DNA from: Stomorhina lunata
Lineage: Eukaryota > Arthropoda > Insecta > Diptera > Rhiniidae
Length of the DNA: 64,000 bases
Direction of reading: 5' to 3'
Assembly (NCBI GenBank): GCA_933228675.1
Contig: OW121743.1
Span: forward strand, 90,455,998 to 90,519,997
The notes under the pieces were generated by a model. The model worked only from the letters and a program-made list of their open reading frames with translations, searched no databases and was not told the origin of the DNA. How positions within the stretch are numbered: position 1 is the stretch's first letter; each line of letters starts with the position of its first letter. Below, one piece after another: positions 13,378-63,910 of this stretch. The position numbers and the translations under genes were made by a program.

Positions 13378-13640
13378 AAAAATTCAAAAAATTTTCTATA
13401 GAAAAATATTTTTATCAAAAAATTTTCTATAGAAAATAATTCTATCAAACTATTTTCTATAGAAAAATACTTTTATAAAAAATTTTTCGATAGAAAAATA
13501 TTTTTATCAAAAAATTTTCTATAGAAAAGTACTTTTATCATAAAATTTTCTATAGAAGATAATTCTATCGAACAATTTTCTATAGAAAAATATTTTCATC
13601 AAACAATTTTTTATAGAAAAATATTTTTATTTAAAAATTT
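13378..13640. repeat. CTATAGAAAA minisatellite, small array
   Basis: About eight units of 30-33 bp carry the palindrome TTTTCTATAGAAAA with ATTTTTATCAAA-type spacers. It belongs to the same core family as the arrays at 29.9-31.1, 34.7-35.4, 44.3-48.1 and 63.2-64 kb. Confidence 0.85.
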
Positions 13641-14001
13641 TTTTATTCTTTAATTTATTTTTTCTTTCCCCAAGCAACATCATCCTACTTTATTGACATT
13701 AATTTTGATGATCAGAAGCTTAACTGGTTTTAACCCTCATTTTTACGAATGATCGTGATTTTTACAAAAATTATACTTGCCTTTTGAATACTGCTCAAAT
13801 GTTTTTAAAATTATATTAGTTTTTTAAAAAATGTGCTTAAAATATCTCGAAAGTTAGTTATACGATTTTAAAATTATTAAAATCTCATACAATAAAATTA
13901 TAATTACAGATAGAATCTATTTCAGCTGCGTTTTTAATTCCACTTAAAATTAATCGTTAACATATCAATTCAACAATATTTTTAATTATACTTAAAATTT
14001 G

Positions 14002-21248: not shown

Positions 21249-24200
21249 TTAACCATAAACTCTTTTCAATAATGTAAAATACGAATAGGTTGCATTGAGC
21301 AACTTCTGCAACATTTCCAAGTTCATGGGATAAACTTTACCCACTAAAATCTGAAAGACATTAAAAAATGTTTGAAATATTAAAATAACAAATAGCCGAT
21401 TCCAAACATACAGCACACGGCTTTTGAGCTCTTAAAATCAACAGCTTCAAAGTTTTCTGAGTGGCGACATCAAACTCAAACCAATTACTATCGTATGCGG
21501 CAATAGCCACCAATAAACTTTGGTCATACAATTCGTTGGCGAAATAATACATGACAACGCTTTGAGAAAAGATCATAAATATATAAATGCTGATTATAAG
21601 CATTTGGGCCATAGTTTCAACCTGGTTAAGAAAATAAATTAAAAAAAAAATCAACAAACTTTATTAACAAAAATCTTACAATTATCAACAGAAATAACAT
21701 TCCGCATAACATGGCTCCGAATGCCATGAATTCCACCAAAAATGTATGACTGGTCAAGTTGTTGAGAGTATCCACATACCTTAGATTTTAAAAGATAAAA
21801 CATTTTAGATTAATTTTTATTTATATTATGTTTTTTCCCTTACTTTAACAGTGTCAACTGATAATTAATACACCACACAATGACTTTGCCGGCTCTTTTG
21901 TCTCCTTCTGCAACGAGATTCCTCAATTTGTGTTGCAAAACTTTACACATTAGAATGGCAAAAAGTATAAATGCCACAATCATGTTCGTAAATGGTATAT
22001 ACATGCAACAGCCCATGGGTGAAATTATTATTTGACACATGAAAAATATCTCATAAAATGGACTTTCATACTTTTCAATACCCGGAACATACATGCCAAA
22101 GGGTAAAACTATATAATATATATTTGAAATTGATGCTAAAATAAAGGATTTCTTGATACATACCTCTTGAGGCGGCAAAAATGGGATAAGTAATGAAGCC
22201 AATGCATGAAATTGTACCCATAAATAAATTAATCTTCGATATTAATCTAGAAGCCTGGGTGGTTTCCTCAAGCATTTGCCTAATAAATTCATCTTCAGTT
22301 TCCTTTAGAATAAAAAAAGGAAAATTCTATAAATTATTCATAGTCTAGTCAAAATTTTGTCTTATTATTTTTTGTATATAGATTGGTCGAATGTTGGTCA
22401 TAGTTCTGTCAAAGTCTAGACTTAGATAACAACCTTCTGGATAAAAAAATGAATGTTCTTAATGGGATTGTTACCCACCCTTTTCTGGAACAACTTTTGT
22501 GGACATGGAATATATGTATATTAGAGTGGGTCAATTTTTTTTACCTCAAGTGCTCATAGCGATTATGATTCTATAGGTCATTCCAAGAAACTTTGCCAAA
22601 GAAACCATAGGTCTAAAACGAATTTTGACCTTCCGGAATTCGCGCCGAAGTTAAGTCTGACATTTTCAGCTTTTGAACGAAAAATATCCTACATTTTCAA
22701 TCTCAAATATAAAACTAATGGTAAGCTCTTTTGAAAAGGTTTTATACTCCTCCGATTGCGTGAAGTCTCTAGATATTTAATACATTAAAGATTTTTTCCT
22801 TGAGTTAATCGTGGAATTGATACTTTGAAAAATTGAAAAAGCGACGTTCAAAATTTCGGTAAATTTTAGAAAAAAAAAAAAATAAAGTTGCATATTTAAA
22901 TCTTCCTATCTAAGCCGTTTTAAGTAATAAATAAAAGTTTTTATACTTTTTGGATTCTACGAGGTACCGGCAATATAATGGAACTAAACACTTTTGGTTG
23001 GAATAGGTTAGACATAGGTTAGACATAGGTTTAAACTAAAAAAAGTAAATAGCCGAAATAAATAAATAAAAAATGGCATTTTGCTTTATTGAACCCTTAT
23101 TAGCAAAAAATCAGCTACAGATTTTAAAAATATTAATAGTAGAAAAAATACGAGAAAATAACCTTTTCGTTGATATATCATTTGTGTATATTATCTTTAA
23201 ATTTCATACAGCTATTGACATCCAATTGCTAAATTTTCAAAAATTAAAACCTGCTGTGTAATAATAATGATAACACTTTGCAGCAAATTGCTGCCGCTAG
23301 CCTCAACAACTCCAATGCGAAAAAGGGGACTACAATGTGGAATGTGGTTCCTTCAACACAACTAGATGAGGTTCTTTCACCATTCTTGGATGCAATTTCC
23401 TATCGATTTTTTCCATGGTTAACTTCAACTGAAATCTGTTTTTTAGCACAAAACACAAATATGGTACAAAGTTTCTGCATCAGTCTTCCCTTCTAATTAT
23501 GATATCCAAAGACTCAAATTGAATATCCATAAACACTATTTCCCCTATCATCCTTCCCACAACCTATTTTCCTAATTCCATTACAATGCATATGCATGTG
23601 TAGGCCAAGCATATTCGAGATCAATTCCAAGAGGCAAGCCATGAATACGCCAAATTCCGACCTACTTACAATATCCAATTGGGGTCGTTTAAATAGGGTC
23701 GATTTCAACGCTCGAAAGACTCAATGTTGTGTGTTAACACGCATTACGAACAATGTTGCATCATCTGTAATTATGGGGTGTATAAATATTGAGGAATTAG
23801 AAACTCTTGATGTTGTAGGCATGCAAATTCAGTGTGATATCCGTTAGACGTTTATCAAGCGTCGAAAGGAGCATTCAAGTGTCCCGGTTTTCTAAAGCGG
23901 TGTAAGACATATTTAACTCCAACTGATCTCCTTAATATCTATACCAATTATATACGACCGAAAATGGAATACAACTCTGATGTATGGGCCGGTGCTTTAA
24001 AGTCTATTTTGGAGCTTCTCGACCGTGTACAAGAGAGGGCAAAGGTGCTTATCGGTGACAGTAGGGTAGTCAACTCTATTGTCTCATTGGAGCATCGTCG
24101 TAATGTGGGTTGCGTTTCACTATTCTATCGCTACTATAATGGCATGTGCTCAAACGAAATTAAGGATATTGTTCCTGAAACCCATACATTTGTTCGTAGC

Positions 24201-25956: not shown

Positions 25957-26165
25957 TTAGGTTAGGCTAGGTTAGGTTAGGTAAGGTTAGGTTAGGTTAG
26001 GTTAGGTTAGGTTAGGTTAGGTTAGGTAAGGTTAGGTTAGGTAAGGTTAGGTTAGGCTAGGTTAGGTTAGGTTAGGTTAGGTAAGGTTAGGTTAGGTTAG
26101 GTTAGGTTAGGTTAGGTTACGTTAGGTTAGGTAAGGTTAGGTTAGGCTAGGTAAGGTTAGGCTAG
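25957..26165 (+). repeat. (TTAGG)n pentamer array
   Basis: About 41 pentamers, mostly TTAGG with scattered CTAGG and TAAGG variants, all in one phase and orientation. TTAGG is the ancestral insect telomere repeat, which Diptera have lost. This tract is interstitial, just upstream (3') of the Or copy B start codon neighbourhood and 160 bp before an RT fragment. Confidence 0.95.
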
Positions 26166-26309
26166 ACAGAAGGCAGACCATAAGGTCCGCGTCACTTGGG
26201 TCCATGATGAGGTCCCTTTGAAATTCCTGCAAGGGAGAGAGAAAAGTAAAATTTCGAATCTATCGTATATAAGAGGCTCAGTTAGAGCCAGCCGGATGCA
26301 CCAAAAAAA

Positions 26310-27254
26310 GAGCCTATTTTACGAATGTTGATGTTCGCAATCCCATTTACATTTATCGACTTTATGAAGGCCTTCGACAGTGTTAATAGAAGCTATCTAT
26401 GGAGAATTTTAGAAAATCGTAACACGCCGACTAAAATTCTCAACTTAATCCGGGCAATGTACGTTGATTTTAAATGTCGAGTCCTACACAAGGGTAAACT
26501 ATCAGATCCGTTCGACGTTACTACTGGAGTAGGGCAAGGATGTATCTTATCACCTATACTTTTTATCCTCGCCATCGACAACATAATGAGTACGGCTCTA
26601 AATGGTAGACACGGTATCCAATGGACAACACCCTTTAAACAACTTGAGGACTTGGAATATGCCGATGACGTATGTCTTCTAAGCCAAAGTTCTGGCCACC
26701 TTCAAGAGAATACTATCTCGTATAGCTGGTCTGGAAATGAATATTTCCAAGACAAAGATTATGACCGGAAGCTATGGCGCAAACCCGTTGACACACATCA
26801 ATGTGGATAACGTGGTTATGGGACGTATAGATACCTTTAATTACCTGAGAAGCTTAGTAACTACAAAAGGTGATGCAGACTAGGATATGAAATCGCGTAT
26901 TAGTAAGGCAAAATCTGCATTCGGCATTCTTCGAGCTATTTGGAAATCTCGGCAAATATCAAATATTCACAAACAAATGCTTAAGGCAAATTCTTGATAT
27001 ATGGTGGCCGAATCGCATAAGAAACGAAGGTCTACTTAATGCGACAAACCAAATCCCTGCTTCCCTACAGAAGTATGTCAACGGAAATGGCTGTGGATAG
27101 GCCACAAACTTCGAAGGCCAAGTACCAACATTGGTCGACAAGCGCTTCGTCGGAATCCACAAGGAAGCGGCCGTAGTATTGGTGCACCTGCTAGAACGTG
27201 GAGAAGCTCAATTGATGCGGAGATGCAAGCTATTCGTGGAATAATGTATGCCTA
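26310..27254 (+). mobile_element. Non-LTR retrotransposon, reverse transcriptase remnant
   Basis: 26325-26810 encodes RT core motifs in order: FIDFMKAFDSVNR, GVGQGCILSPILF and LEYADDVCLLS, the last being the YADD catalytic box. Beyond it the frame breaks. The expected downstream pieces remain in shifted frames: a FNYL..T..GDAD thumb segment near 26835, AKSAFGILRAIW near 26910 and an IGH..RRPSTNIGRQALR tail near 27100-27170. It ends with a stop near 27252. Truncated at the 5' end and inactive. Confidence 0.9.
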
Positions 27255-29884: not shown

Positions 29885-31090
29885 AAAATTAATTTTTCTA
29901 TAGAAAATTTTTCGGTTAAAAAATTATTCTATAGAAAATTTTTCGATTAAAAAGTTATTTTTAGGTTAAAAAATTATTCTTTAGAAAAATTTTCGGTTAA
30001 AAAATTTTTCTTTAGAAAATTTTTCGGCTAAAAAATTTTTTTGTAGAAAATTTTTCTATAAAAAATTTTTCGGTTAAAAATATTTCTATATATTTTGCAG
30101 TGAATAAAAGTTTTCTATAGAAAATTTTTCAGTTAAAAAATTTTTATGTAAAAAACTTTTTCTAAAGAAAATTTTCGGATAAAAAATTTTCTATGGTAAA
30201 TTTTCGTTTAAAAAATTTGTCCATAGAAAATTTTTCGGTTAAAAAAATTTTCCTACAGAAAATTTTTGGATTAAAAAAATTTTTCTATAGAAAATTTTTC
30301 GGTTAAAAAAAATTTTCTATAGAAAATTTTTCGGTTAAAAAAAAAATTTTCTATAGAAAATTTTTCGGTTAAAAAAAAATTTTCTATAGAAAATTTTTCG
30401 GTTAAAAAAAAATTTTCTATAGAAAATTTTTCGGTTAAAAAAAATTTTCTATAGAAAATTTTTCGGTTAAAAAAAATTTTCTATAGAAAATTTTTCGGTT
30501 AAAGAAAAATTTTCTATAGAAAATTTTTCGGTTAAAAAAAATTTTCTATAGAAAATTTTTCGGTTAAAAAAAAATTTTCTATAGAAAATTTTTCGGTTAA
30601 AAAAAAATTTTCTATAGAAAATTTTTCGGTTAAAAAAAATTTTCTATAGAAAATTTTTCGGTTAAAAAAAATTTTCTATAGAAAATTTTTCGGTTAAAAA
30701 AAATTTTCTATAGAAAATTTTTCGGTTAAAAAAAATTTTCTATAGAAAATTTTTCGGTTAAAAAAAATTTTCTATAGAAAATTTTTCGGTTAAAAAAAAA
30801 TTTTCTATAGAAAATTTTTCGGTTAAAAAAAATTTCTATAGAAAATTTTTCGGTTAAAAAAAAATTTTCTATAGAAAATTTTTCGGTTAAAAAAAAATTT
30901 TCTATAGAAAATTTTTCGGTTAAAAAAAAATTTTCTATAGAAAATTTTTCGGTTAAAAAAAAATTTTCTATAGAAAATTTTTCGGTTAAAAAATTTTTCT
31001 TTAGAAAAGTTTTCGGGTAAAAAATTTTTCTTTAGAAAAGTTTTCGGTTAAAAAATGTTTCTTTAAAAAAGTTTTCGGTTAAAAAAAGCA
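29885..31090. repeat. CTATAGAAAA minisatellite, AATTTTTCGGTTAAAAA subtype
   Basis: About 37 units of 31-33 bp: AATTTTCTATAGAAAA then TTTTTCGGTTAAAAA. The central part (30300-30980) is almost uniform apart from A-run length, while both edges are diverged. This is the usual sign of recent unequal-exchange homogenisation. Confidence 0.95.
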
Positions 31091-34745: not shown

Positions 34746-35365
34746 ATAATATGAAAATTTTTCTATACAAAATTTTTGGGTTTTTTATACAAAATTTCTG
34801 GGTATGAAAATTTTTCTATAAAAATCTTTTTGATATAAAAATTTATTTTTATACAAAATTCTTCGCTATAAAAATTTTTCTACAGAAAATTTTTCGATAT
34901 AAAAATTTTTCCAAAAAAAAATTTTCGATATCAATATTTTTCCATAGAACATTTTTTGATATAAAAATTTTTCTATAGAAAATTTTTCGATGTGAAAATT
35001 TTTGTATAATATTTTTTTCAATATGAAAATTTTTCTATAGAAAATTTTCGATATTTGTCTATAAACATTTTTTCAATATGAAAATTTTTCTATACAAAAT
35101 TTTTGGGTATGAAAATTTTTTTATACAAAATTTTTGGGCATGAAAATTTGTCTATAAAAATTTTTTTGATATAAAAATTTATTTTTATACAAAATTCTTC
35201 GATATAAAAATTTTTCTACAGAAAATTTTTCGATATAAAAATATGTCTATTGAAATTTTTTGATATAAAAATTTGTCTTTAGAAAATTTTTCGATATATA
35301 CAAAATTATGTATAGAAAATGCTTTGATATAGAAAATTGTTTGATTTTTCGATATACAAATTTTC
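34746..35365. repeat. CTATAGAAAA minisatellite, TTCGATATAAAAA subtype
   Basis: About twenty diverged units of roughly 30 bp with TTTTTCTATAGAAAA and TTTTTCGATATAAAAA. It ends 110 bp before the Inr/DPE promoter. Confidence 0.85.
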
Positions 35366-36202: not shown

Positions 36203-36389
36203 GTAATTCTTTCAAATACTTTTTCTATTTTTATATAAATATAAACCCCCTAATTCATAAAAAAAAAACAAAATTATAACAAAGTTATAAATCAAATTTT
36301 TCGCGCAAAATTCAAATAATTTGATAATTTTAAAATTTATTTATAAATAAGTGAGTATATCTATATATAAAAATTTAGATATTTTTTTT

Positions 36390-39300
36390 ATGAGCATTTT
36401 GATTTTATGTATGAAAAACTTAAAATTAGATGTAGTTTCTTAAATAAGCGTCCAATCGACAAAATACTTGATTTTGGTGATCATTTTTATTTTTTGTATG
36501 AAAAACTTAAAATTGGCTGTAGTTTTTTAAATAAGCGTCCAATCGAGAAAATACTTGATTTTAGTGATCATTTTGATTTTTTGTACCAAAACTTAAAATT
36601 GGCTGTAGTTTTTTAAATAAAGCGTTAAATAAGCGTCCAATCGAGAAAATACTTGATATTGGTGATCATTTTGATTTTTGTACCAAAAACTTAAAATTGG
36701 CTGTAGTTTCTTAACTAAGCGTCAAATTGAGAAAATACTTGATTTTTGTGATCCTTTTGATTTTTTGTACCAAAAACTTAAAATTGGCGTAGTTTCTTAA
36801 ATAAGCGTCCAATCGAGAAAATACTTGATTTTGGTGATCATTTTAATTTTTTGTATGAAAAACTTAAAATTGGCTGTAGTTTCTTAAATAAGCCTCTAAT
36901 CGAGAAAATACTTGATTTTGGTGATCATTTTGATTTTTTGTACCAAAAACTTAAAATTGGCTGTAGTTTCTTAAATAAGCGTCAAATCGAGAAAATACTT
37001 GATTTTTGTGATCATTTTAATTTTTTGTATGAAAAACATAAAATTGGCTGTAGTTTCTTAAATAAGCGTCAAATCGAGAAAATACTTGATTTTTGTGATC
37101 ATTTTGATTTTTTTTTTACCAAAAACTTAAAATTGGCTGTAGTTTCTTAAATAAGCGTCAAATCGAGAAAATACTTGATTTTGGTGATCATTTTGATTTT
37201 TTTTTACCAAAAACTTAAAATTGGCTGTAGTTTCTTAAATAAGCGTCCAATCGAGAAAATACTTGATTTTGGTGATCATTTTGATTTTTTGTACCAAAAA
37301 CTTAAAATTGGCTGTAGTTTCTTAATTAAGCGTCAAATCGAGAAAATACTTGATTTTTGTGATCATTTTAATTTTTTGTATGAAAAACTTAAAATTGGCT
37401 GTAGTTTCTTAAATAAACGTCCAATCGAGAAAATACTTGATTTTGGTGATCATTTTGATTTTTTTACCAAAAACTTAAAATTGGCTGTAGTTTCTTAAAT
37501 AAGCGTCAAATCGAGAAAATACTTGATTTTTGTGATCATTTTGATTTTTTTTTACCAAAAACTTAAAATTGGCTGTAGTTTCTTAAATAAACGTCCAATC
37601 GAGAAAATACTTGATTTTGGTGATCATTTTAATTTTTGTACCAAAAACTTAAAATTGGCTGTAGTTTCTTAAATAAGCGTCCAATCGAGAAAATACTTGA
37701 TTTTTGTGATCATTTTGATTTTTTGTACCAAAAACTTAAAATTGGCTGTAGTTTCTTAAATAATTTTTTGTGATCATTTTGATTTTTGTACCAAAAACTT
37801 AAAATTGGCTGTAGTTTCTTAAATAAGCGTCCAATCGAGAAAATACTTGATTTTTGTGATCATTTTGATTTTTTTTTTACCAAAAACTTAAAATTGGCTG
37901 TAGTTTTTTAAATAAGCGTCCAATCGAGAAAATACTTGATTTTTGTGATCATTCTGATTTTTTGTACCAAAAACTTAAAATTGGCTGTAGTTTCTTAACT
38001 AAGCGTCCAATCGAGAAAATACTTGATTTTTGTGATCGTTTTTATTTTTTTGTATGAAAAACTTTAAATTGGCTGTAGTTTCTTAACTAAGCGTCAAATC
38101 GAGAAAATACTTGATTTTGGTGATCATTTTGATTTTTTGTACCAAAAACTTAAAATTGGCTGTAGTTTCTTAAATAAGCTTCCAATCGAGAAAATACTTG
38201 ATTTTTGTGATCGTTTTTATTTTTTGTACCAAAAACTTAAAATTGGCTGTAGTTTCTTAACTAAGCGTCCAATCGAGAAAATACTTGATTTTTGTGATCG
38301 TTTTTATTTTTTTGTATGAAAAACTTTAAATTGGCTGTAGTTTCTTAACTAAGCGTCAAATCGAGAAAATACTTGATTTTGGTGATCATTTTGATTTTTT
38401 GTACCAAAAACTTAAAATTGGCTGTAGTTTCTTAAATAAGCTTCCAATCGAGAAAATACTTGATTTTTGTGATCATTTTGATTTTTTTTTACCAAAAACT
38501 TAAAATTGGCTGTAGTTTCTTAAATAAGCTTCCAATCGAGAAAATACTTGATTTTTGTGATCATTTTGATTTTTTTTTACCAAAAACTTAAAATTGGCTG
38601 TAGTTTCTTAAATAAGCGTCCAATCGAGAAAATACTTGATTTTTGTGATCATTCTGATTTTTTGTACCAAAAACTTAAAATTGGCTGTAGTTTCTTAAAT
38701 AAGCTTCCAATCGAGAAAATACTTGATTTTGGTGATCATTTTGATTTTTTTTTTACCAAAAACTTAAAATTGGCTGTAGTTTTTTAAATAAGCGTCCAAT
38801 CGAGAAAATACTTGATTTTTGTGATCATTCTGATTTTTTGTACCAAAAACTTAAAATTGGCTGTAGTTTCTTAACTAAGCGTCCAATCGAGAAAATACTT
38901 GATTTTTGTGATCGTTTTTATTTTTTTGTATGAAAAACTTTAAAGTGGCTGTAGTTTCTTAACTAAGCGTCAAATCGAGAAAATACTTGATTTTGGTGAT
39001 CATTTTGATTTTTTGTACCAAAAACTTAAAATTGGCTGTAGTTTCTTAAATAAGCTTCCAATCGAGAAAATACTTGATTTTTGTGATCATTTTGATTTTT
39101 TTTTACCAAAAACTTAAAATTGGCTGTAGTTTCTTAAATAAGCGTCCAATCGAGAAAATACTTGATTTTGGTGATCATTTTAATTTTTGTACCAAAAACT
39201 TAAAATTGGCTGTAGTTTCTTAAATAAGCGTCCAATCGAGAAAATACTTGATTTTTGTGATCATTTTGATATTTTTTATGCAAAACTTAAAATTGGCTGT

Positions 39301-42145
39301 AGTTTCTTAAATAAGCGTCCAATCGAGAAAATTCTTGATTTTTGTGATCATTTTGATTTTTTTAAGAAAAAACTTCAAATTGGCTGTAGTTTCTTAAATA
39401 AGCGCCCAATCGAGAAAATACTTGATTTTGGTGATCATTTGGTGATTTTTTTTACCAAAAACTTAAAATTGGCTGTAGTTTCGGGAAAATCGGGAAAATA
39501 CTTGATTTTGGTGATCATTTTGATTTTTTTGTATGAAAAACTTAAAATTGGCTGTAGTTTCTTAAATAAGCGTCCAATCGAGAAAATTCTTGATTTTTGT
39601 GATCATTTTGATTTTTTGTATGAAAAACTTAAAATTGGCTGTAGTTTCTTAAATAAGCGTCCAATCGAGAAAATACTTGATTTTTGTGATCATTTTGATA
39701 TTTTTTATGCAAAACTTAAAATTGGCTGTAGTTTCTTAAATAAGCGTCCAATCGAGAAAATACTTGATTTTTGTGATCATTTTGATTTTTTTTTACCAAA
39801 AACTTAAAATTGGCTGTAGTTTCTTAAATAAACGTCCAATCGAGAAAATACTTGATTTTGGTGATCATTTTAATTTTTGTACCAAAAACTTAAAATTGGC
39901 TGTAGTTTCTTAAATAAGCGTCCAATCGAGAAAATACTTGATTTTTGTGATCATTTTGATTTTTTGTACCAAAAACTTAAAATTGGCTGTAGTTTCTTAA
40001 ATAATTTTTTGTGATCATTTTGATTTTTGTACCAAAAACTTAAAATTGGCTGTAGTTTCTTAAATAAGCGTCCAATCGAGAAAATACTTGATTTTTGTGA
40101 TCATTTTGATTTTTTTTTTACCAAAAACTTAAAATTGGCTGTAGTTTTTTAAATAAGCGTCCAATCGAGAAAATACTTGATTTTTGTGATCATTCTGATT
40201 TTTTGTACCAAAAACTTAAAATTGGCTGTAGTTTCTTAACTAAGCGTCCAATCGAGAAAATACTTGATTTTGTGATCGTTTTTCTGATTTTTTGTACCAA
40301 AAACTTAAAATTGGCTGTAGTTTCTTAAATAAGCTTCCAATCGAGAAAATACTTGATTTTGGTGATCATTTTGATTTTTTTTTTACCAAAAACTTAAAAT
40401 TGGCTGTAGTTTTTTAAATAAGCGTCCAATCGAGAAAATACTTGATTTTTGTGATCATTCTGATTTTTTGTACCAAAAACTTAAAATTGGCTGTAGTTTC
40501 TTAACTAAGCGTCCAATCGAGAAAATACTTGATTTTTGTGATCGTTTTTATTTTTTTGTATGAAAAACTTTAAAGTGGCTGTAGTTTCTTAACTAAGCGT
40601 CAAATCGAGAAAATACTTGATTTTGGTGATCATTTTGATTTTTTGTACCAAAAACTTAAAATTGGCTGTAGTTTCTTAAATAAGCTTCCAATCGAGAAAA
40701 TACTTGATTTTTGTGATCATTTTGATTTTTTTTTACCAAAAACTTAAAATTGGCTGTAGTTTCTTAAATAAGCGTCCAATCGAGAAAATACTTGATTTTG
40801 GTGATCATTTTAATTTTTGTACCAAAAACTTAAAATTGGCTGTAGTTTCTTAAATAAGCGTCCAATCGAGAAAATACTTGATTTTTGTGATCATTTTGAT
40901 ATTTTTTATGCAAAACTTAAAATTGGCTGTAGTTTCTTAAATAAGCGTCCAATCGAGAAAATTCTTGATTTTTGTGATCATTTTGATTTTTTTAAGAAAA
41001 AACTTCAAATTGGCTGTAGTTTCTTAAATAAGCGCCCAATCGAGAAAATACTTGATTTTGGTGATCATTTGGTGATTTTTTTTACCAAAAACTTAAAATT
41101 GGCTGTAGTTTCGGGAAAATCGGGAAAATACTTGATTTTGGTGATCATTTTGATTTTTTTGTATGAAAAACTTAAAATTGGCTGTAGTTTCTTAAATAAG
41201 CGTCCAATCGAGAAAATTCTTGATTTTTGTGATCATTTTGATTTTTTGTATGAAAAACTTAAAATTGGCTGTAGTTTCTTAAATAAGCGTCCAATCGAGA
41301 AAATACTTGATTTTTGTGATCATTTTGATATTTTTTATGCAAAACTTAAAATTGGCTGTAGTTTCTTAAATAAGCGTCCAATCGAGAAAATACTTGATTT
41401 TGGTGATCATTTTGATTTTTTTGTATGAAAAACTTAAAATTGGCTGTAGTTTCTTAAATAAGCGTCCAATCGAGAAAATACTTGATTTTGGTGATCATTT
41501 TGATTTTTTGTACCAAAAACTTAAAATTGGCTGTAGTTTCTTAAATAAGCTTCCAATCGAGAAAATACTTGATTTTTGTGACCATTTTGATTTTTTTTTA
41601 CCAAAAACTTAAAATTGGCTGTAGTTTCTTAAATAAGCGTCCAATCGAGAAAATACTTGATTTTTGTGATCATTTTGATATTTTTTATGCAAAACTTAAA
41701 ATTGGCTGTAGTTTCTTAAATAAGCGTCCAATCGAGAAAATTCTTGATTTTTGTGATCATTTTGATTTTTTTAAGAAAAAACTTCAAATTGGCTGTAGTT
41801 TCTTAAATAAGCGCCCAATCGAGAAAATACTTGATTTTGGTGATCATTTGGTGATTTTTTTTACCAAAAACTTAAAATTGGCTGTAGTTTCGGGAAAATC
41901 GGGAAAATACTTGATTTTGGTGATCATTTTGATTTTTTTGTATGAAAAACTTAAAATTGGCTGTAGTTTCTTAAATAAGCGTCCAATCGAGAAAATTCTT
42001 GATTTTTGTGATCATTTTGATTTTTTGTATGAAAAACTTAAAATTGGCTGTAGTTTCTTAAATAAGCGTCCAATCGAGAAAATACTTGATTTTTGTCATC
42101 ATTTTGACTTTTTGTACCAAAAACTAAAAATTGGCGACAGTTTCT
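36390..42145 (+). repeat. 87-bp satellite array with higher-order blocks
   Basis: About 66 units of 87 bp, each with CTTGATTTTTGTGATCATTT, an AAAAACTTAAAATTGGCTGT segment and AATAAGCGTCCAATCGAGAA. Because 87 is 29 codons and one frame lacks stops, runs of up to 222 codons stay open with a repeated KLKIGCSFLNKRPIEKILDF peptide. Variable T-runs and single-base gaps break the frame many times, so it is not treated as a gene. Larger blocks are copied: 39131-39780 reappears at offset +1630 and partly at +2410; 37583 onward reappears at +2241. A marker unit with TTTCGGGAAAATCGGGAAAA occurs at 39480, 41110 and 41890. Confidence 0.95.
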
Positions 42146-43285
42146 TAAATATTTGTTTGCATGGCAACGCTATCGTCATCGTCATTTTTTCATTCTGGCA
42201 GTTCTTTTTAGTTCTAGATTCTATAATTTTAGTATGAAAATACTATTAATATTTAAACCTTAAACCGTTAGGACTTTAAATTTAAACTGAAGCAACTGAA
42301 GTAAAATTAAAAGGTTTATCAAAATATTGAATTATTTAAACTTACTTTTTTATTCCAAAAATATTCTTTATAAATAAAAACTCTTTAGAATAATTGTTTA
42401 AGTGAAATTTTTATTAATTTGTCTTGTTCTTTATATTGTTTTTGTTATATATAATTTTATCATTATTTATTCGAGTTTTTGGTTGATTTTATTTAAAATT
42501 TATTTTCATTGTTCATATTATTTTTTTTTTGTCAAATATTAGTATCGTTTACAAGTTTTTTCTTTGTATGCTGGCCTTTTAGTAAAAATCGAAAGCAACC
42601 TAAATTAGTTATTTTTTGTTTGTCATTTTTATTAAAGATTACAATATTTTAGTTGTTTTTTGTTTTCGAAAAATTTTAGTTATAAATTTTTTATTTAATT
42701 TTTGTTTAGGTATTTCTTTTAATATTGCTTTTATAAATATTTTTTTGTTTTGTTTATATTTTAGATACTATTTTGCGAAAAAAGTAAAGAAAATTTAGAA
42801 GATTTTCGTTTTTGTTAAATTTATTGCTTAGGCATATTTTTTGTATAAAAGAAGGTTTTTGAAATATTATTCTGGAAAATTTTTTTGTTGGATATTTTTT
42901 AATTTTGTTTGAATATTGTTTGAGTGATTTTATGCTTTAAAAATTTGGGTTTATGTAAATTTTATAACTTGAGCAAAATATTTATGTAGTTCTAAAATTT
43001 TTGTATTATTGAAAATATAGTAAATGTTTAAGTGAAATTTAGAAAAGTATTAAAAGTAATTTTAAAGTGATAATTTTTGTTTTTCACATTAACCAAAATC
43101 TGATAGAAGAATCTAAATAGGTCACGAGTTGAAAAATTTATATATCTAAACGCATCAAAGATAATATCAAGTCATGGAACTCGAACCAGTTTTAAATTAA
43201 GGCCTTAAAAGACTTTATTAAACGCCATCTTTATCGAAAACAAAACAATTGTTAAGTTTTTCCCTTAAAAACTTGTCATATAGTC
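42146..43285. other. AT-rich DNA after the 87-bp satellite, no gene seen
   Basis: T-rich low-complexity sequence. The open frame 42616-42798 is a by-product of T-rich composition. Nothing else was recognised. Confidence 0.5.
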
Positions 43286-43530: not shown

Positions 43531-44258
43531 TAAGTAACTAAGCTATATGATACTCTTCAATACTAAGGTCAAATATGGACCAACAATTAAACAAGTTTTC
43601 CTTAAGTCTTAGATACATACATATACTCTTATGTGGTATTTTTGTAAAAATTTCGAGATTTTAGTAGTTTTATATCATTTCCGACTAAGGACTTGATATG
43701 AGAGCTAGGGTCAATTGTAAATCAATTATTAACAAATTTCAGTTATCGGTTTATATTTTCGAAATATTTATCTGTACAAAATTTTAGTAGTAAAGTGCAT
43801 TTATTTTTTAAAGATATATCCGCGATTTAGCATTAACAAGACTTTTAAGAATATGTCTTATATTAGAGGCATTGTCATATATGGACTGATTCCTACAAAA
43901 TTAGGTATAGCAATATTTATGCTGAATATTATTAAAATACAATACAATTTCTCACTCTAAAGTGCCAAAAACTCTATTCTGGGAAGGCATCCCTATGGGA
44001 GGTACCCGAAATAGTAATCCGATTTGGTCCAAAAACTATAGCGATCATCTTTGGACTAAAATTAGTCTGTGCCAAATTTAATTATATTATCTATTAAATT
44101 ACTACCTGTAATTTGATAACGAGCTTATATGGATATCCGACCAGCCATTTAACAGGACGAACATCGTTAAATCAACCCAGGGAGTGATTCTGAGTCGACC
44201 ATTATACTAAATTGTAAGTCTCAGACCAATATTTCTATGCCTTACAAACATCAACAGA
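43528..44258 (+). mobile_element. Element A, copy 4, 3'-truncated
   Basis: Begins at AAGTAAGTAACTAAGC and follows the element A order up to the CTATGCCTTACAAACATCA block. The last 40 or so bases are then replaced by the minisatellite that starts near 44270. Most similar to copy 1 (shared CAAATATGGACCAACAAT and GGAGGTACCCGAAATAG). Confidence 0.8.
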
Positions 44259-44269
44259 AAAAATTTTGT

Positions 44270-47200
44270 AATGAAAACTTTTCTAAAGAAAAAATTTTAT
44301 AACAAAAATTTTTCTATTAAAAAAAAAAAATTATAGTGAACATTTTTCTTTAAAAAAAAATTTATAATGCAAATTTTTCTATAGAAAAAATTTTATAATA
44401 AAAATTTTTCTATAGAAAAAATTTTATAATAAAAATTTTTCTATAGAAAAAATTTTAAAATAAAAATTTTTCTATAGAAAAAATTTTAAAATAAAAATTT
44501 TTCTATAGAAAAAATTTTATAATGAAAATTTTTCTATAGAAAAAATTTTATAATAAAAATTTTTCTATAGAAAAAATTTTATAATAAAAATTTTTTTATA
44601 AAAAAATTTCATAATGAAAATTTTTCTATAGAAAAAATACTCATAACGAAATTTTTCGAAAAGAAAACATTTTATAATAAAACTTTTTCTATAGAACAAA
44701 TTTTATAATGAAAACCTTTCTATAGAAAAATACAAATGACGAAACGTTTTGTAAAGAAAAAAATTTATAATGCAAATTTTTCTATAGAAAAAATTTATAA
44801 CAAAAACTTTTCTATAGAAACAAATTATAATGAAATTTTTTCTATGGAAAAAATTTTATATTGAAAATTTTTCTATAGAAAATTTTTTATAATGAAAATT
44901 TCTCTATAGAAAAAAATTTATAATGAAAATTTTTCAGTTAAAAATATTTTATAATAAAAATTTTCTGTAGAAAAAATTTAACAAAGAAAATTTTTTTATA
45001 AAAAATGTTTCTATAGAAAAAATTTAATAATGAAAATAATGCATACTTTTTTCATAGAAATAATTTTAAATGAAAAATTTTCTATTGAAAAATTTTTATA
45101 ATGAAAAATTTTCTATAAAAAAATTTCATAATGAAAATTTTTCTATAGAAAAAATTTCATAAAGAAAATTTTTTATAGCAAAAATTTCATAATAGAAAAT
45201 TCATTATACAAATTTTTCTATAGAAAAACCTTATTATTAAATATTTTGAATAGAAAAATTTTCATTATAAAATTTTTTCCATGGAAAAATTTTCATTTTT
45301 AAAATTTTTCTATAGAAAAAATTTCATTATTAAAATTTTTCTATAGAAAAAATTTCATTATAAAAACTTTTCTATAGAAAAATTTTCATTATAAAAATTT
45401 TTCTATAGAAAAATTTTTGTAATGAAAATTTTTATTAAAAAATTTTTTCCATAGAAAAATTTTCCACTATGAACTTTTTTCTACAGAAAAATTTTCATTA
45501 TGAAATTTCTTCTATAGAAAAATTTTCATTATGAAATTTTTCTATAAAAAAAAATCATAATAAAAACTTTTTGTAGCAAAAATTTCATAATGAAAATTTT
45601 TCTGTAGAAAAAAGTTCATAATGGAAAATTTTTCTATAGAAAAAATTTTTTAATGAAAATTTTCAATATAAAAAGTTTTCTATAGAAAAATTTTTGTAAT
45701 TAAAATTTTTCTATAAAAAAATTTTTATAATTGAAATTTTTCTATAGAAAACTTTTTGTAATTGAAATTTTTCTATAGAAAAATTTTTGTAATTGAAATT
45801 TTTCTATAGAAAAATTTTTGTACTTGAAATTTTTCTATAGAAAAATTTTTGTAATTGAAATTTTTCTATAGAAAAATTTTTGTAACTGAAATTTTGCTAT
45901 AGAAAAATTTTTGTAATGAAAATTTTTTTATAGAAAAATTTTTGTAATGAAAATTTTTCTATAAAAAAATTTTAATAATGAAATTTTTTCTATAGAAAAA
46001 CTTTAAAAATGAAAATTTTTCCATGGAAAAAATTTTATAATGAAAGTTTTTCTATTCAAAATATTGTATAATAAAGTTTTTCTATAGAAAAATTTGTATA
46101 ATGAATTTTTTATTATGAAATTTTTGCTATAAAAAATTTTCATTATGAAATTTTTTCTATAGAAAAATTTTCATTATGAAATTTTTTTATAGAAAAATTT
46201 TCATTATAAAAATTTTTCAATAGAAAATTTTTCATTTAAAATTATTTCTATGGAAAAAATATGCATTATTTTCATTCTTAAATTTTTTCTATAGAAACAT
46301 TTTTTATAAAAAAATTTTCTTTGTTAAATTTTTTCTACAGAAAATTTTTATTATAAAATATTTTTAACTGAAAAATTTTCATTATAAATTTCATAATGAA
46401 AATTTTTCTATAAAAAATTTTTCATTATGAAATTTTTCTATAAAAAATTTGTCATTATGAAATTTTTTCGATAGAAAAATTTTCATTATGAATTTTTTTC
46501 TATAGAAAAATTTCATAATGAAAATTTTTCTATAAAAGAAATTTCATAATGAAAATTTTTCTGTAGAAAAAAGTTATAATAAAAATTTTCCTATAGAAAA
46601 ATTTTTTAATGAAAATTTTTCTATAGAAAAATTTTTTTAATGAAAATTTTCAATATAAAAAGTTTTCTATAGAAAATTTTTTGTAAATGAAATTTTTCTA
46701 TAGAAAAATTTTTGTAATTGAAATTTTTCTATAGAAAAATTTTTGTAATTGAAATTTTTCTATAGAAAAATGTTTGTAATGAAAATTTTTGTATAGAAAA
46801 AATTTGTAGTGAAAATTTTTTTAATAATGAAAATTTTTCCATGGAAAAAATTTTATAATGAAAATTTTTCTATGGAAAAAATTTTTCTATTCAAAAAATT
46901 GTATATTAAAGTTTTTCTAAGGAAAAATTTGTGTAATGACATTTTTTTTTTATAAAAAAAATTTTATTATTAAAAAAATTATGTAATGAAAATTTTCTGT
47001 AGAAAAAATTTTATAATAAAAAAATGTTTCTATAGATAAATTTTGTTATAAAAATTTTTCTATGGAACAAATTTTATAATTAAAATTTTTCCACAGAAAA
47101 AATTTCTTTATAAAAATTTTTTATCTTTAGAAAAAATTTTATAATGAATATTGTTCTATTGAAAAAATTATAATAAAATGTTTTCTATAGAAAAATTTTA

Positions 47201-48125
47201 AATTAAAATTTTTTCTATAGAAGAAATTTCATAAAGAAAATTGTTCTGTAGAAAAAAGTTCATAATGAAAATTTTTCTATAGAAACATTTTTTAATGAAA
47301 ATTTTTCTATCGAAAAGTTTTTTAATGAAAATTTTTCTGTAGAAAATTTTTTGATGAAAATTTTTCTATAGAAAAATTTTTTTAATAAAAATTTTCATTA
47401 TAAAAAGTTTTCTATAGAAAAATTTTCGTTATTGAAATTTTTCTATAGAAAAATTTTCGTAATTGAAATTTTTCTATAGAAAAATTTTCATTATTAAAAT
47501 TTTTCTATAGAAAAAATTTTATTATAAAAATGTTTATTACAAAAATTTTTCTATAGAAAAATTTCAATTACGAAAATTTTTCTATAGAAAAATTTCAATT
47601 ACAAAAATTTTTTTATAGAAAAATTTCAATTACAAAAATTTTTCAATAGAAAACTTTTTATAATGAAAATTTTCATTAAACAATTTTTTCTATAGAAAAA
47701 TTTTCATTAAAAAAAATTTCTACAGACAAATTTTCATTAAAAAACTTTTCTATAAAAAAATTTTCATTATGAACTTTTTTCTACAGAAAAATTTTCATTA
47801 TGAAATTTCTTCTATAGAAAAATTTTCATTATGAAATTTAAAAAAATTCATAATAAAAACTTTTTATAGCAAATATTTCATAATGAAAATTTTTCTATAA
47901 AAAAAAATTTATTATAAAAATTCTTTATAGAAAAAAATTATAATAAAATTTTTTCTATACAAAAAAATTTAATAATAAAAAACTTTTTTTTATAGAAAAA
48001 AAATTTATAATGAAAAGTTTTCTGTAAAAAAAATTTTTAATTTTTAAAGAAAAATTTTCCCATAGAAAAAATTTTATAATGAAAATTTTTCAACAGAAAA
48101 AATTTCATAATGAAAAAAATTAAAT
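44270..48125. repeat. CTATAGAAAA minisatellite, large ATAATGAAAA subtype array
   Basis: About 3.85 kb, on the order of 125 units of 29-33 bp alternating TTTTTCTATAGAAAAA with spacers ATTTTATAATGAAA, TTTTTGTAATTGAAA or ATTTTCATTATAAAA. Spacer subtypes form local blocks (TTGTAATTG near 45750-45900, TTCATTATG near 46130-46500). Some blocks use the reverse complement of the spacer. No open frame. Confidence 0.95.
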
Positions 48126-58558: not shown

Positions 58559-59986
58559 TTAAAAGGCCATACTCGTACGTCGACCACCTATACCGGGACT
58601 GGGGCGAAAAGCTCCCCCACCACCACCACTACCGCCACCACGCGGAAGTCCACCATGCGAAACACTGCGTCCCATGCGAGACTCACTACCACGACGTTCT
58701 CTTGCTTTACGCAACAGATCCGAGGTACTCGGTCGACGACTATTGCTGGTCGACGAGGAGGCGCTACGTTTACTACCCGACATAATGTCCGATGTAGACG
58801 AACGCCGAATATTTTGTGAAGAAGATGCAAAAGCATGCGGCGACAGAAAATATGGCGATGGAGAACTGGCCTGTGAACGCGACATATCGTAGCGATGTGG
58901 TGTTGGCTGCTGCAGAAGATGGTGATCACCACCACTACCATCACCGGTAAGATGTATTAGTTCTCGGCTCGAACGATTGTCGTCATTAGAACTGTTGCGT
59001 CGTGACGAGTATGGCGATTGTGGATAATCGATCAATAAATTCTCCGACTCTTCATTATCAACCGATTCGATTTTCAAATAGGGAGGCATGCGATTATAGG
59101 GTTGATGTATATGCGGATGCAAGTCATTGATATTCAATTCACTACCATTAGCATTAATGCCCGATGTCAATATATTAGCTCCTCCCTCCTCCATGCCCAC
59201 ACTGCTACCTCTACCCTGTCTTACCTCATTGGCCATTAGATTCGTGGACTGGGAATGTGATTTATTCTGATTGGAAGTGCCATTACGTAAACCACTATAC
59301 AGGGACTTAATATGAAAGTCGAATGACTTAAAATTCAAAAGAGAACGTTTCTTTTGAATCTTCAAAGGCGGGGCCTCGCCCACATCGCCATTATTATTAT
59401 TGGCCAGATTGCGTAAAGTTAAAGTGGTATTGAAATCATTTTCAAAATTATTATTTAAAGTATCGATTTGTATGGTATTGGGTATCGAGGTTGTGGTAAT
59501 ACTATCCAGCCGATGGGTGGCAGCCGTGGCCACAGAACCCACCGATGCCGTCATTGTATTGTCTAAACTGTATGTAGTATTTTGAGAAAAACGTTGTTGT
59601 TGCTGTTGCTGCTGTTGCATTTGCATTAATTGTTGCTGTTGCTGTTGTATTATTAATAATTGCTGTTGTTGTTGCTGCTGCTGTTGCTGTATATGTTGTT
59701 GTTGATGTTGTAAATCATGTTTACTTATTGTTGTTGTCATTGTGGTACTACTTAAACTAGTTTTACTACTAATTGCTTTTATAAATTTATTATCAATATC
59801 TAAGGACTCCTTTCGTCACTGAATAACGCAAAAGCCTTGTTTAGAGGCATCTTTAGCATCGCCATCCTCACCGCAAAATGCCGCGACTTCGTCATTTTTG
59901 GGTGATTCTTGCCCACAGGGACCAATGCCGCTGCCGCCAGCGACACCGCCGCTAAGGCTGGGTGGCCCCTGGGGGCAGGCTGATTG
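58559..59986 (-). CDS. Hk: Hyperkinetic C-terminal extension, reached by double stop-codon readthrough
   Basis: Directly after the Hk stop (TGA at 59987-59989, next base C) the same frame is open for 56 codons, starting QSACPQGPPSLSGG and ending QGFCVIQ. A second TGA at 59816-59818, again followed by C, is then followed by 25 codons and, still in frame, 393 more from an ATG at 59740 to TAA at 58559. The tail has two poly-Gln runs (first 50 codons of the ATG part), an acidic middle, and a Ser/Arg-rich end with RRNS, RRSS, RRPS, RRGS and RRTS and a Gly-rich run. No splice site is needed. The GC-rich, C-ending codons differ sharply from flanking AT-rich DNA, which argues for coding constraint. 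Alternatives are editing of TGA to TGG or separate initiation at 59740. Confidence 0.72.
59816..59818 (-). promoter_or_regulatory. Hk: Second leaky stop candidate, TGA-C
   Basis: CAG TGA CGA in the Hk frame. TGA followed by C is known as the leakiest stop context and is enriched at Drosophila readthrough genes. Confidence 0.65.
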
Positions 59987-59989
59987 TCA
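59987..59989 (-). promoter_or_regulatory. Hk: First leaky stop candidate, TGA-C
   Basis: CGG TGA CAA at the end of the canonical Hk frame, followed by an open GC-rich frame. Confidence 0.7.
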
Positions 59990-62900
59990 CCGAAGTGCCA
60001 GTGTTGATATCATCGGCGGTCGCACCGGTTTATTCTCTAATATTCGTTCCAATTCTAGCATTACACTGGTCGATAAACGTGGCAGTAGCTGGAAAAGAGA
60101 TATAAAAAGGAAGGTTTATATTAGTTAAAAATAAGTGTTCTTAAAATTTTTAATCACTTAAAGTTTTTTGTTAAAAGCTTGTTTATAAGCTTATAGTAAT
60201 TTGGTATTAAGTCTTCGTACTTGGCTATAAGTCGTTCATAAAACAAACGAAAAAAGCTTATTGATATAGTATAGAAAGCATATACAGTAAGCTATTAAAA
60301 CTTAAAGCATATAATGGAAGTTTAATTTTTTAAAGCTTTTGAGGTACATGTCATGAAAGTTTGATTCCAGTTTGTTCTTCATATTGGCGTTAAAGTTTTT
60401 AAACTTTTAGTACAAAAAATGTTGTTGATTACTTAAATATTTTGCAAAAACTTGTTCATAAGCTTAAAGTGCTTTTTCGTACTTAAAATAAAATCTTTCA
60501 GAACACGTATTTTTTGTAAAAAGCCCTAGTTTTTCGCTCAAATGATTTTTAACTTGTTCCTCTATTGTTTAATATTTTAGAGCTTTAGTAAAAAAAATTT
60601 GATAATCAACTCAAAGCTTAAAATTAAAGCTATTTAAAAGCTTCAAATTGGAAGTTACTTGAATAAAATTAAAGAAGCTAACATTTTTATATAAAGCTTT
60701 AATTTTCAATGAGTTTTCTAAAATTCACTAGTCACAGGGAATTTTTTGAAAATCCGTTATTTGGGGAATTTTTCCAAAATTTACAATTTACAGGAAATTT
60801 TTCAAAAATTTACAATTTATAGGAAATTTTTGGAAAATTGACTATTTATAGGAAATTTTTGGAAAATTGACTATTTATAGGAAATTTTTCGAAAATTGAC
60901 TATTTATAGGAAATTTTTCGAAAATTGACTATTTATAGGAAATTTTTCGAAAATTGACTATTTATAGGAAATTTTTCGAAAATTGACTATTTATAGGAAA
61001 TTTTTCGAAAATTGACTATTAATAGGAAATTTTTCGAAAATTGACTATTTATAGGAAATTTTTCGAAAATTGACTATAGGAAATTTTTCGAAAATTGACT
61101 ATTTATAGGAAATTTTTCGAAAATTGACTATTTATAGGAAATTTTTCGAAAATTGACTATTTATGGAAAATTTTTCGAAAATTGACTATTTATAGGAAAT
61201 TTTTCGAAAATTGACTATTTATAGGAAATTTTTCGAAAATTGACTACTTATAGGAAATTTTTCGAAAATTGACTATTTATAGGAAATTTTTCGAAAATTG
61301 ACTATTTATAGGAAATTTTTCGAAAATTGACTAGTTATAGGAAATTTTTCGAAAATTGACTATTTATAGGAAATTTTTCGAAAATTTACTATTTATAGGA
61401 AATTTTTCGAAAATTGATTATTTATAGGAAATTTTTCGAAAATTGACTATTTATAGGAAATTTTTCGAAAATTGACTATTTATAGGGCATTTTTCTAAAA
61501 TTTACTATTTAAAGGAAATTATTTTTTAAATTTACTTATGAAATTTTTCGAATAAATTTATTATTTTTTCAAAAACTGATTATTTACAGGAAATTTTTCA
61601 AAAATCTATAATTTAGGAAATTTTTCGAAGATTAATTATTTATAGGAAATTTTTCGAAAATTGACTATATATATGAAGTTTTTCTAAAATTTACTATTTA
61701 TAGGAAATTTTTCAAAATTTTATTACAATATTTATAGGAAATTTTTTCAAAACTTGGTTATTTACAGAAAGTTTTTCAAAAATTTACTTTTTATAGGAAA
61801 TTTTTCGAAGAGTGATTATTTATAGTAAATTTTTCGAAAATTGACTATTTATAGGGAATTTTTCGAAAATTGACTATTTATAGCAAATTTTTCGAAAATT
61901 TACTATTCATAGGAAAATTTTCGAAAATTTGCTTTTTATAGGAATTTTTTCGAATATTTACTATTTATAGGAAATTTTTCGAAAATTGACTATTTATAGG
62001 AAATTTTTGAAAATTCACTTTTTATAGGGCATTTTTCGAAAATTTACAATTTATCAGAAATTTTTCGAATATTTACTATTATAGGAAATTTTTTGTAACT
62101 TTACAATTTGTAGGAAATTTTTCGAAAATTCATTGTTTATACGAAATTTTTCAAAAGCTTAACATAAAAAGATTTTTAAAAAAGCTTTTTTTCCTTAGGT
62201 GAGTAAAAATTCGAAAGTAAGCTTATTAACTTAAAGCTTTTTGATATAAATAACATTTTCAAACATTTAATTCGAAGATCAAGCAAAGATCCATTAGAAG
62301 CTAGCTTCCAATATCTGAAAGATGGAGATGAATAAATATATTCTCACCTGTAATGATTGCAAACTCTGGTGCAATTGCTCAGCAGAAGTGGCACCTAAAA
62401 GTAAACATTGAACGGGTTCATGTTTCAATGACCAGGCTATTGACAATTGTGTAGGAGTGCAGCCGAGCTTTTCAGCTAAAGCAGCTAAATCCTTAAGACG
62501 ATCACAATGACGACGACCTTCTTCCATGCGTTCCTTATTCCAACTACCCTGAGGCGATAAGGCGGCCTTTAAGAAATAATCAAATCAAATTTATAAATTT
62601 AACACATTTTTTAGAATAATTTCAGAAATACTAACATTCCTATTAACTTCATCTTCAGTCCATGAATAGCTATGACTCTTTGTCTTAAACGATCCCTTTG
62701 GCAAAAAGATCTTCTCACCATTCTGAGCATCACTCAAGGCCATCGAAAGTGGGCCCCAGGCCATTAGACCCACACCAATTTTATTATACATTTCGGGCAA
62801 ATAGAGTTCACATTTTTCGCGACAGAACATATGATACTCGGATTGTTCGACGATCGGCGTAATACAATTAAACTGACGGCAGTTAGTATAGGCTTCCATG

Positions 62901-63171
62901 ATTTCGACCTGAGTCCAACGGGCAGTGCCCCAATACATGGCCCATCCTTGATGGATGATGTAGTTCATGGCTCTGACTATCTCTGTGGTGAAAATAGTTT
63001 AGTTTAAAAAATATCTAAAGAGCATCTATAAAAATGGACTTACCTTCCATGGGGCACATGGCATCTGCTTTATGAATAATTACAATATCGATATATTGTA
63101 ATTGCAGACGTTGCAAACTAGCCTTAACGGACTCAATGATGTGTTTCCGTGAGAGGCCACGTTCTTCGGAT
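59987..63171 (-). CDS. Hk: Hyperkinetic, Shaker potassium-channel beta subunit (3' part)
   Basis: Aldo-keto-reductase-fold cytoplasmic beta subunit that binds Shaker-type Kv channels and tunes their gating by NADP redox state. Five exons are visible on the minus strand: 63171-63044, 62982-62636, 62566-62348, 60088-59987, all GT..AG; upstream exons lie beyond the window. Exons from 63171 give SEERGLSRKHIIESVKASLQ, then a WAMYWGTARW strand, PIVEQSEYHMF, GVGLMAWGPL, LAEKLGCTPTQLSIAWSLKH and LLLGATSAEQL, in AKR order. The last exon encodes 33 residues ending MISTLALR before TGA. The residue aligned with catalytic Asn of mammalian Kv-beta is His (IIHKAD). Introns are 61, 69 and 2259 bp; the last holds a 29-bp minisatellite. 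The N-terminal Asp-Tyr-Lys part is not visible. Confidence 0.95.
60740..62160. repeat. 29-bp minisatellite in the last Hk intron
   Basis: About 48 units of TATAGGAAATTTTTCGAAAA plus TTGACTATT, nearly uniform between 60890 and 61480 and diverged at the edges. AATTTTTCGAAAATT is close to a palindrome and resembles the TTTTTCGGTTAAAAA part of the 30-kb array. Confidence 0.95.
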
Positions 63172-63239
63172 CTAGAAGGAAATTTAAGATTTTTACAAAA
63201 AATAACAATATTTTTCGATATCCTTATTTCATCTATGGA

Positions 63240-63910
63240 AAAGTTATCGATAACTTCGCTTTTCTATAGAAAAGTTATCGATAACTTCGCTTTTCTATAG
63301 AAAAGTTATCGATAACTTTGCTTTTCTATAGAAAAGTTATCGATAACTTTAATTTTCAATAGAAAAGTTATCGATAACTTTGCTTTTTTATAGAAAAGTT
63401 ATCGATAACTTTGCTTTTCTATAGAAAAGTTATCGATAACTTTAATTTTCAATAGAAAAGTTATCGATAACTTTGCTTTTCTATAGAAAAGTTATCGATA
63501 ACTTTGCTTTTCTATAGAAAAGTTATCGATAACTTTGCTTTTCTATAGAAAAGTTATCGATAACTTCGCTTTTTTATAGAAAAGTTATCGATAACTTCGC
63601 TTTTCTATAAAAAAAGTTATCGATAACTTTGCTTTTCTATAGAAAGGTTATCGATAACTTTATTTTTCAATAGAAAAGATATCGATAACTTTGCTTTTTT
63701 ATAGAAAAGTTATCGATAACTGTGCTTTTCTATGGAAAAGTTATCGATAACTTTGCTTTTCTATAGTAAAGTTATCGATAACTTTGCTTTCTATAGTAAA
63801 GTTATCGGTAACTTTGCTTTTCTATAGAAAAGTTATCAATAACATTACTTTTCTATAGAATAGTTATGGATAACTTTGCTTTTCTATAGAAAATTTATCG
63901 ATAACTTTTT
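63240..63910. repeat. 31-bp minisatellite with TATCGATA (DRE) palindromes in an Hk intron
   Basis: 22 units, each pairing the palindrome GTTATCGATAAC with TTTTCTATAGAAAA. Nineteen keep an intact TATCGATA; three near the right end have a one-base change. TATCGATA is the DREF site and contains CGATA, the BEAF-32 motif. The array lies just upstream of exon 63171-63044. Confidence 0.95.

Follow-up and report, generated by a model that had tools for sequence, protein, structure and literature searches.

Where does the Hyperkinetic protein of a fly end? The question is raised by a stretch of 64,000 nucleotides from Stomorhina lunata (contig OW121743.1, positions 90,455,998 to 90,519,997; hereafter the window), whose minus strand carries Hyperkinetic (Hk), the gene of a Kv beta subunit. 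The last Hk exon opens at 60088 behind a CAG acceptor, and its last coding segment of the annotated type (59990-60088, 33 codons, LLPRLS...STLALR, delimited by the frame and by the ends of its relatives) translates as LLPRLSTSVMLELERILENKPVRPPMISTLALR and runs into a TGA followed by C (stop 1, CGG TGA CAA, 59987-59989). The same frame then stays open for 56 codons (59819-59986, QSACPQG...GFCVIQ, placed by frame and alignment), meets another TGA followed by C (stop 2, CAG TGA CGA, 59816-59818), and continues for a tail of 418 codons (58562-59815, placed by frame and protein relatives), 25 of them ahead of the first ATG at 59740 and 393 more, up to a TAA at 58559-58561. All three stops were read directly from the letters. 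A preliminary description of this DNA had proposed that Hk continues in one frame through both TGA-C stops, and its coordinates and codon counts proved to be right. Based on the comparison of protein sequences reported below, we consider conserved double stop-codon readthrough of fly Hk to be very probable, and it is likely that two leaky stops would give the protein three alternative C-termini, namely a plain one, one that is probably farnesylated, and a disordered tail with RRxS sites.

In first-order Markov simulations, an open run of 56 codons arose by chance in 23% of sequences with the segment's own composition, in 6% with the composition of the tail and in 1.3% with that of the window. 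The 56-codon gap is therefore unremarkable by length alone, since 23% of the own-composition simulations reach such a run. For each of the three compositions 4000 sequences were simulated, and a run of 418 open codons arose in none; no other stop-to-stop frame of the window is as long as that of the tail. The composition of the between-stops segment is as unusual as the preliminary description had it, that is, GC-rich with many codons ending in C: its GC content is 58% versus 43% in the tail and 28% in the window, and C is the commonest third codon base (38%, versus 15% in the tail). The GC-rich stretch after stop 1 can be explained by the strong predicted hairpin described below. The strong evidence for readthrough is conservation rather than the length of the frame.

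Conservation was assessed in a comparison set of 189 proteins, in which those that pass through the stops come mostly from contig collections. Thirty-five proteins run on beyond the STL..R end of ordinary Hk, 24 of them with W and then Q and 11 otherwise, and these 11 were excluded from the W count. The 24 proteins (20 from lgn, 2 from jgi and 2 from ena) were selected by site 1 alone, and at site 2 every one of them again shows W, directly behind FC.[IL]Q. The residue after this second W is Q in 19, H in two, P in two and R in one. The codons of these residues have only the first base C in common, so TGA-C looks to be kept even though the residue changes. The leaky context UGA-C is present at both stops in the window, and in all 24 relatives the residue that follows stop 2 allows a codon starting with C. 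An exact end at STL..R was found in 43 proteins, of which 42 are annotated models (ncbi, uniref or nr) and one is from lgn; no annotated model has a W at site 1. One of the 42 is from a mayfly (P0146, Cloeon), with the end STLALR. Site 2 is the precise end of three annotated models (P0092, D. subpalustris; P0094, An. culicifacies; P0098, D. simulans), and the models that lead from Hk to the tail in Glossina (P0087), Clunio (P0173) and Culicoides (P0161) skip both stop positions. Taken together, the W in the 24 contig proteins and the termination in the 42 annotated models imply that both sites are probably TGA in the relatives. The contig collections appear to be translated in part with a code in which TGA stands for Trp, in which case W would mark TGA.

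For the between-stops segment we relied on an alignment of pass-through proteins with 25 rows including the window. The search patterns that picked its rows themselves contained W and FC.[IL]Q, so the match at site 2 of all 24 proteins selected by site 1 alone is the less biased figure. A mixed alignment, A2, was excluded for this purpose because it misaligned the segment with tail-only proteins. At the protein level all three coding segments are conserved, and in-frame conservation covers the between-stops segment and the tail, including the codons upstream of the internal ATG. The proposal of double readthrough in one frame is thus well supported by protein comparison across Diptera. The preliminary description had also suggested scoring each segment and both stops for conservation. 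This turned out well at the protein level for the between-stops segment and the tail, while the stop codons themselves can be followed only by way of the W residues. The viral_contigs and genome_contigs collections were searched for the DNA of the relatives, and no contig in them encodes one.

The tail has 86 protein relatives (7975 candidates sharing most words with it were scored), and a profile search with the tail returned 202 proteins. Among the 86 proteins and the 120 profile matches listed of the 202, those with a named source are all from Diptera and include Calliphora, Musca, Glossina, tephritids, Drosophila, Hermetia, sand flies, gall midges, Culicoides and Clunio. By its sequence relatives the tail is real and old. 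It contains no Pfam domain at the curated cut-off, and in an AlphaFold model of the readthrough region the mean predicted local distance difference test (pLDDT) score was 50, with 352 of the 509 residues below 50. The tail is therefore predicted to be mostly disordered, in line with the preliminary description. Five PDB matches with E-values up to 1, the best (0.00019) to FAM155A over the Q-rich stretch, were regarded as low-complexity and set aside as uninformative.

Within the tail, the alignment picks out the conserved blocks SLLNFKSFDFHIKSLYSGLR (59285-59344) and PPYLKIESVDNEESENLLIDYPQSPYSS (59003-59086) and, together with motifs, RRPSTSDLLRKARERRGSESR (58676-58738), and motif counts in the relatives pick out RRSSTSD (58787-58807) and the C-terminus RRTSMAF (58562-58582). 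RRSSTSD is present in all of the 123 proteins that have RRPS[TA]S. In 101 of these 123 proteins RRxS[MI] lies at the C-terminus with at most two residues behind it, in 66 cases as MAF. The tail of the window has five [RK]Rx[ST] motifs where 0.8 are expected, which is above all 300 shuffles. RRxS is a consensus of the protein kinase A (PKA) type, and the C-terminal -[MI]A[FY] presumably resembles a class II PDZ ligand.

If stop 1 is leaky, there may be a structural reason for it. Folding of the window sequence, on which all hairpin calculations were done, predicts an RNA hairpin (59910-59977) whose stem begins 9 nt after stop 1. The 80 nt after the stop fold with -43.9 kcal/mol (z -2.6; one shuffle in 200 did equally well), and longer folds give z -2.3 at 100 nt and z -2.0 at 150 nt. 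This 80-nt stretch is the most stable of those tested in 5-nt steps from the start of the exon to the end of the tail, and in three sets of 1000 synonymous controls only 13, 8 and 10 were as stable. The symbol Hk also appears in a published account of D. melanogaster readthrough, where we take it to mean Hyperkinetic. That account describes readthrough of stop 1 in the same gene, with a stem-loop near the stop; when the Hk stem-loop was put behind the UAG stop of dfr, readthrough in S2 cells reached 4-5 times that of dfr288 (PMC13170385). Hk was among the genes earlier predicted to be read through, according to the same paper, which cites Jungreis 2016 (its ref. 10). With a stop-1 candidate already published, readthrough at this site cannot be called new. 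The account differs from ours in that its available part mentions neither a second stop nor a CaaX box, nor the tail of 418 residues (PMC13170385). The preliminary description could not say whether Hk readthrough was known in Drosophila: for stop 1 it is, as a published candidate with a stimulating stem-loop, and for stop 2 that part of the source makes no mention of it (PMC13170385). The stop-1 hairpin, the conserved CaaX box of the intermediate product and the conserved basophilic phospho-site motifs of the tail go beyond the preliminary description.

The product that would end at stop 2 has a feature of its own. Immediately ahead of this stop the window reads F-C-V-I-Q, so that CVIQ (59819-59830, from the letters and the alignment) forms a CaaX box that is C-terminal only if translation ends there. 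All 25 rows of the alignment share F, C and Q; a2 is occupied by I in 24 rows and by L in one, and a1 by E in 21, N in two, V in one and L in one. The 24 relatives selected by site 1 alone all have C-x-[I/L]-Q, with E, N or L at a1. By composition C-x-[ILVM]-[QMSAC] would arise by chance with a probability of about 0.0008, a figure that has to be read knowing that the motif was chosen after being seen. Arabidopsis protein farnesyltransferase prefers CVIQ, kinetically the best of four sequences with a kcat/Km of 8.9 versus 5.3 for CVIM, shows low selectivity at a1 and ranks Gln first at X (PMC3017772). The confinement of the variation mainly to a1 matches what a farnesyltransferase tolerates, because this enzyme has low a1 selectivity and prefers Gln at X. 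CNIQ of RAP2A and CCIQ of PDE6A are tabulated as farnesylated, that is, as carrying the 15-carbon group (PMC7674641). The evidence leans toward the CaaX box being functional as a prenylation site, in which case the stop-2 product would be farnesylated and tethered to membranes. No description of a CaaX box in Hk was found in the literature searched, which did not include supplementary gene lists.

Several observations weigh against this picture and should be set out together. That the codon is TGA and not TGG in the 24 contig proteins is something we infer from protein sequence, and these proteins are not independent of each other. Of the 11 proteins that run beyond STL..R without W, some are Anopheles models whose joins differ and the others are chironomid proteins with STLQMRGL. 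RRPSTS and RRSSTSD are missing from five Anopheles models (P0091, P0093, P0095, P0127 and P0142); the first four retain the between-stops segment and P0142 skips it. The count of [RK]Rx[ST] motifs was equalled by shuffles in 9 of 23 tails, the tail of the window not being among the nine. At 60 nt the fold after stop 1 is unexceptional (z -1.0, 31 of 200 shuffles as good), and folding of the window RNA found no structure after stop 2 (z +1.0 at 80 nt, +0.1 at 60 nt), so readthrough there may be weak. The Q ahead of stop 2 could be kept for its nucleotide context and not for a CaaX box, but stop-codon context could not easily account for the kept C and a2. Lastly, CEIQ, the commonest form of the box, was not found as an assayed substrate in the literature searched, and the data for CVIQ concern a plant enzyme.

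Other explanations have to be measured against the same evidence. NCBI lists the tail as separate genes that start at the internal ATG, and this assumes that it is an independent open reading frame with its own transcript or a downstream cistron. The ATG at 59740 has an A at -3, and annotated proteins start at the internal Met in Calliphora, Rhagoletis, Zeugodacus, Eurosta, Teleopsis and D. innubila. Initiation at this point, however, cannot account for the in-frame conservation between the stops and from stop 2 to the ATG, and the MTTTIS start is missing in several relatives (e.g. P0051, P0057 and P0147). We regard an independent frame as very improbable. Splicing could instead remove the stops, for instance as a 57-nt stretch around stop 1 (60025-59969) that is in frame and has GT and CAG ends. 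An equivalent intron is used by the models of D. simulans, D. subpalustris, Glossina and Clunio, and both the Val (GTN) codon of the donor and the QG of the acceptor are kept in the window and in 10 of the 24 pass-through relatives, which is a further point to set against readthrough. In the other 14 Val and QG are not both present (the donor residue is Ile in 7 of the 23 that can be read), so this splice is unlikely to be the general route, although it is possible in some flies. Moreover, the residues that it would excise are themselves conserved, and at site 2 the Glossina model is shorter than its relatives by only about 6 codons, too few for an intron. As a general explanation for the passage of both stops, we think splicing very improbable.

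The W seen at both positions in the contig proteins could also reflect editing of adenosine to inosine in the RNA, by which TGA would be read as TGG. Such editing by ADAR is disfavoured by a G preceding the edited A. In P0051 and P0086 there is apparent intron sequence ahead of the last exon, which makes these contigs look genomic, and RNA editing cannot explain a W in genomic DNA. The W may be explained by gene callers that use a code with TGA as Trp, and we give editing very little credence. Both Hk stops being UGA, insertion of selenocysteine deserves mention. No Rfam family, the selenocysteine insertion sequence (SECIS) element included, was found in the window at the gathering threshold, though no dedicated SECIS search was made, and we know of no Kv beta subunit that is a selenoprotein; selenocysteine is accordingly the explanation to which we attach next to no probability.

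The history of these models in databases has left some oddities. P0001, P0005, P0006, P0007 and P0025 are tails that match the readthrough frame but are filed as orphan genes under misleading names, and orphan entries called mediator subunit 26, ataxin-2 homolog or the kinase MARK-A would be explained by their being tails of Hk. The chironomid proteins P0133, P0135 and P0141 read STLQMRGL[IV]SH...; P0133 stops 13 residues beyond STLQMR and P0141 stops 7 beyond it, and P0135 extends 314 residues past it without RRPSTS. These Hk-like proteins are perhaps a duplicate that lost readthrough, as Clunio also has a tail-bearing Hk (P0173).

Double readthrough as such has precedents. In Drosophila there are 22 double cases, with vvl and Ets65A as triple ones (PMC4528330), and in A. 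gambiae 35 double candidates (PMC5100048), and these genes resemble Hk in that a single frame crosses two leaky stops. Neither account names Hk in its available parts, and the gene may be among their supplementary gene lists (PMC4528330, PMC5100048). More generally, a conserved second readthrough of Hk was not found in the literature searched and may already stand in such lists. A parallel for the CaaX box is Syx17, which Dunn 2013 reports as one Drosophila extension with a predicted farnesyltransferase (prenylation) signal (PMC3840789, Table 2). As in Hk, readthrough of Syx17 exposes a predicted prenylation signal, but Syx17 is listed there with one extension, whereas in Hk the signal precedes a second leaky stop that is able to bury it. 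The gene number of Hk is absent from the main text of Dunn 2013. The peroxisomal targeting signal type 1 (PTS1) cases LDHB, MDH1 and CG1969 are also like Hk in that readthrough reveals a targeting signal, but this is a peroxisome signal and not a lipid anchor, and no second switch is mentioned for them in the available part of the paper that cites them (PMC5100048).

The rest of the window adds context for the locus. Further upstream in the gene, open frames with AG/GT edges judged by eye mark three Hk coding exons on the minus strand, at 63044-63171 (RSEERGLSRKH...PMEG), 62636-62982 (EIVRAMNYIIHQGWAMYWGTARW...) and 62348-62566 (AALSPQGSW...QSLQ). The Hk introns carry long tandem arrays of 29-bp and 31-bp units (60714-62156 and 63232-63908), and similar 31-bp TCTATAGAAAA arrays lie at 13384-13641, 29891-31087, 34781-35338 and 44256-48116. 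Another tandem array, of 5.8 kb (36385-42151), has 87/175-bp units and is traversed by long open frames. At 25957-26165 there are about 42 TTAGG-like repeat copies beside a reverse-transcriptase frame (RVT_1) at 26286-26807; many insects have TTAGG as their telomere repeat, which flies have lost. Fragments of two odorant-receptor frames (14097-14561 and 21843-22241), of a short-chain dehydrogenase (11815-12438) and of the C-terminus of RPN1 (3908-4297) were also seen.

Returning to double readthrough, a mechanism can be outlined from the sequence. Ribosomes that end at stop 1 would make ordinary Hk with the end STLALR. Some would read through this stop, aided by its UGA-C context and the strong hairpin 9 nt downstream, with Trp or another near-cognate residue presumably inserted at each UGA. 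Where stop 2 is then obeyed, Hk would gain 57 residues and the CaaX end CVIQ. Where stop 2 is read as well, the CaaX box would be buried and the disordered tail of 418 residues added; RRxS motifs are conserved in this tail, which in most cases ends in RRxS-[MI]-A-[FY]. Translation past the stops, phosphorylation of the tail and regulation by tissue are put forward as suggestions, as is the low, regulated expression in neurons that the preliminary description proposed. With some reservation, and rather as a possibility to work from than as an expectation, we propose that most of the Diptera sampled have a three-state C-terminal switch, in which Hk would be soluble, farnesylated and membrane-bound, or extended by a tail open to phosphorylation, the level of readthrough setting the proportions.

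For most readthrough extensions the function is unknown (PMC5100048). Hk offers a specific function that is written in the sequence, namely a putative prenylation box, which takes the terminal position only when stop 1 is read and stop 2 is obeyed. A box that is exposed only between two leaky stops would explain why neither stop has been lost to a sense codon. Hyperkinetic is reported to store sleep pressure as a memory of lipid peroxidation, by way of how oxidized its nicotinamide cofactor is (PMC12043502). If the three-state switch is true, it would tune where in the cell this redox-sensing, sleep-related beta subunit is located, as well as the access that kinases such as PKA have to it.

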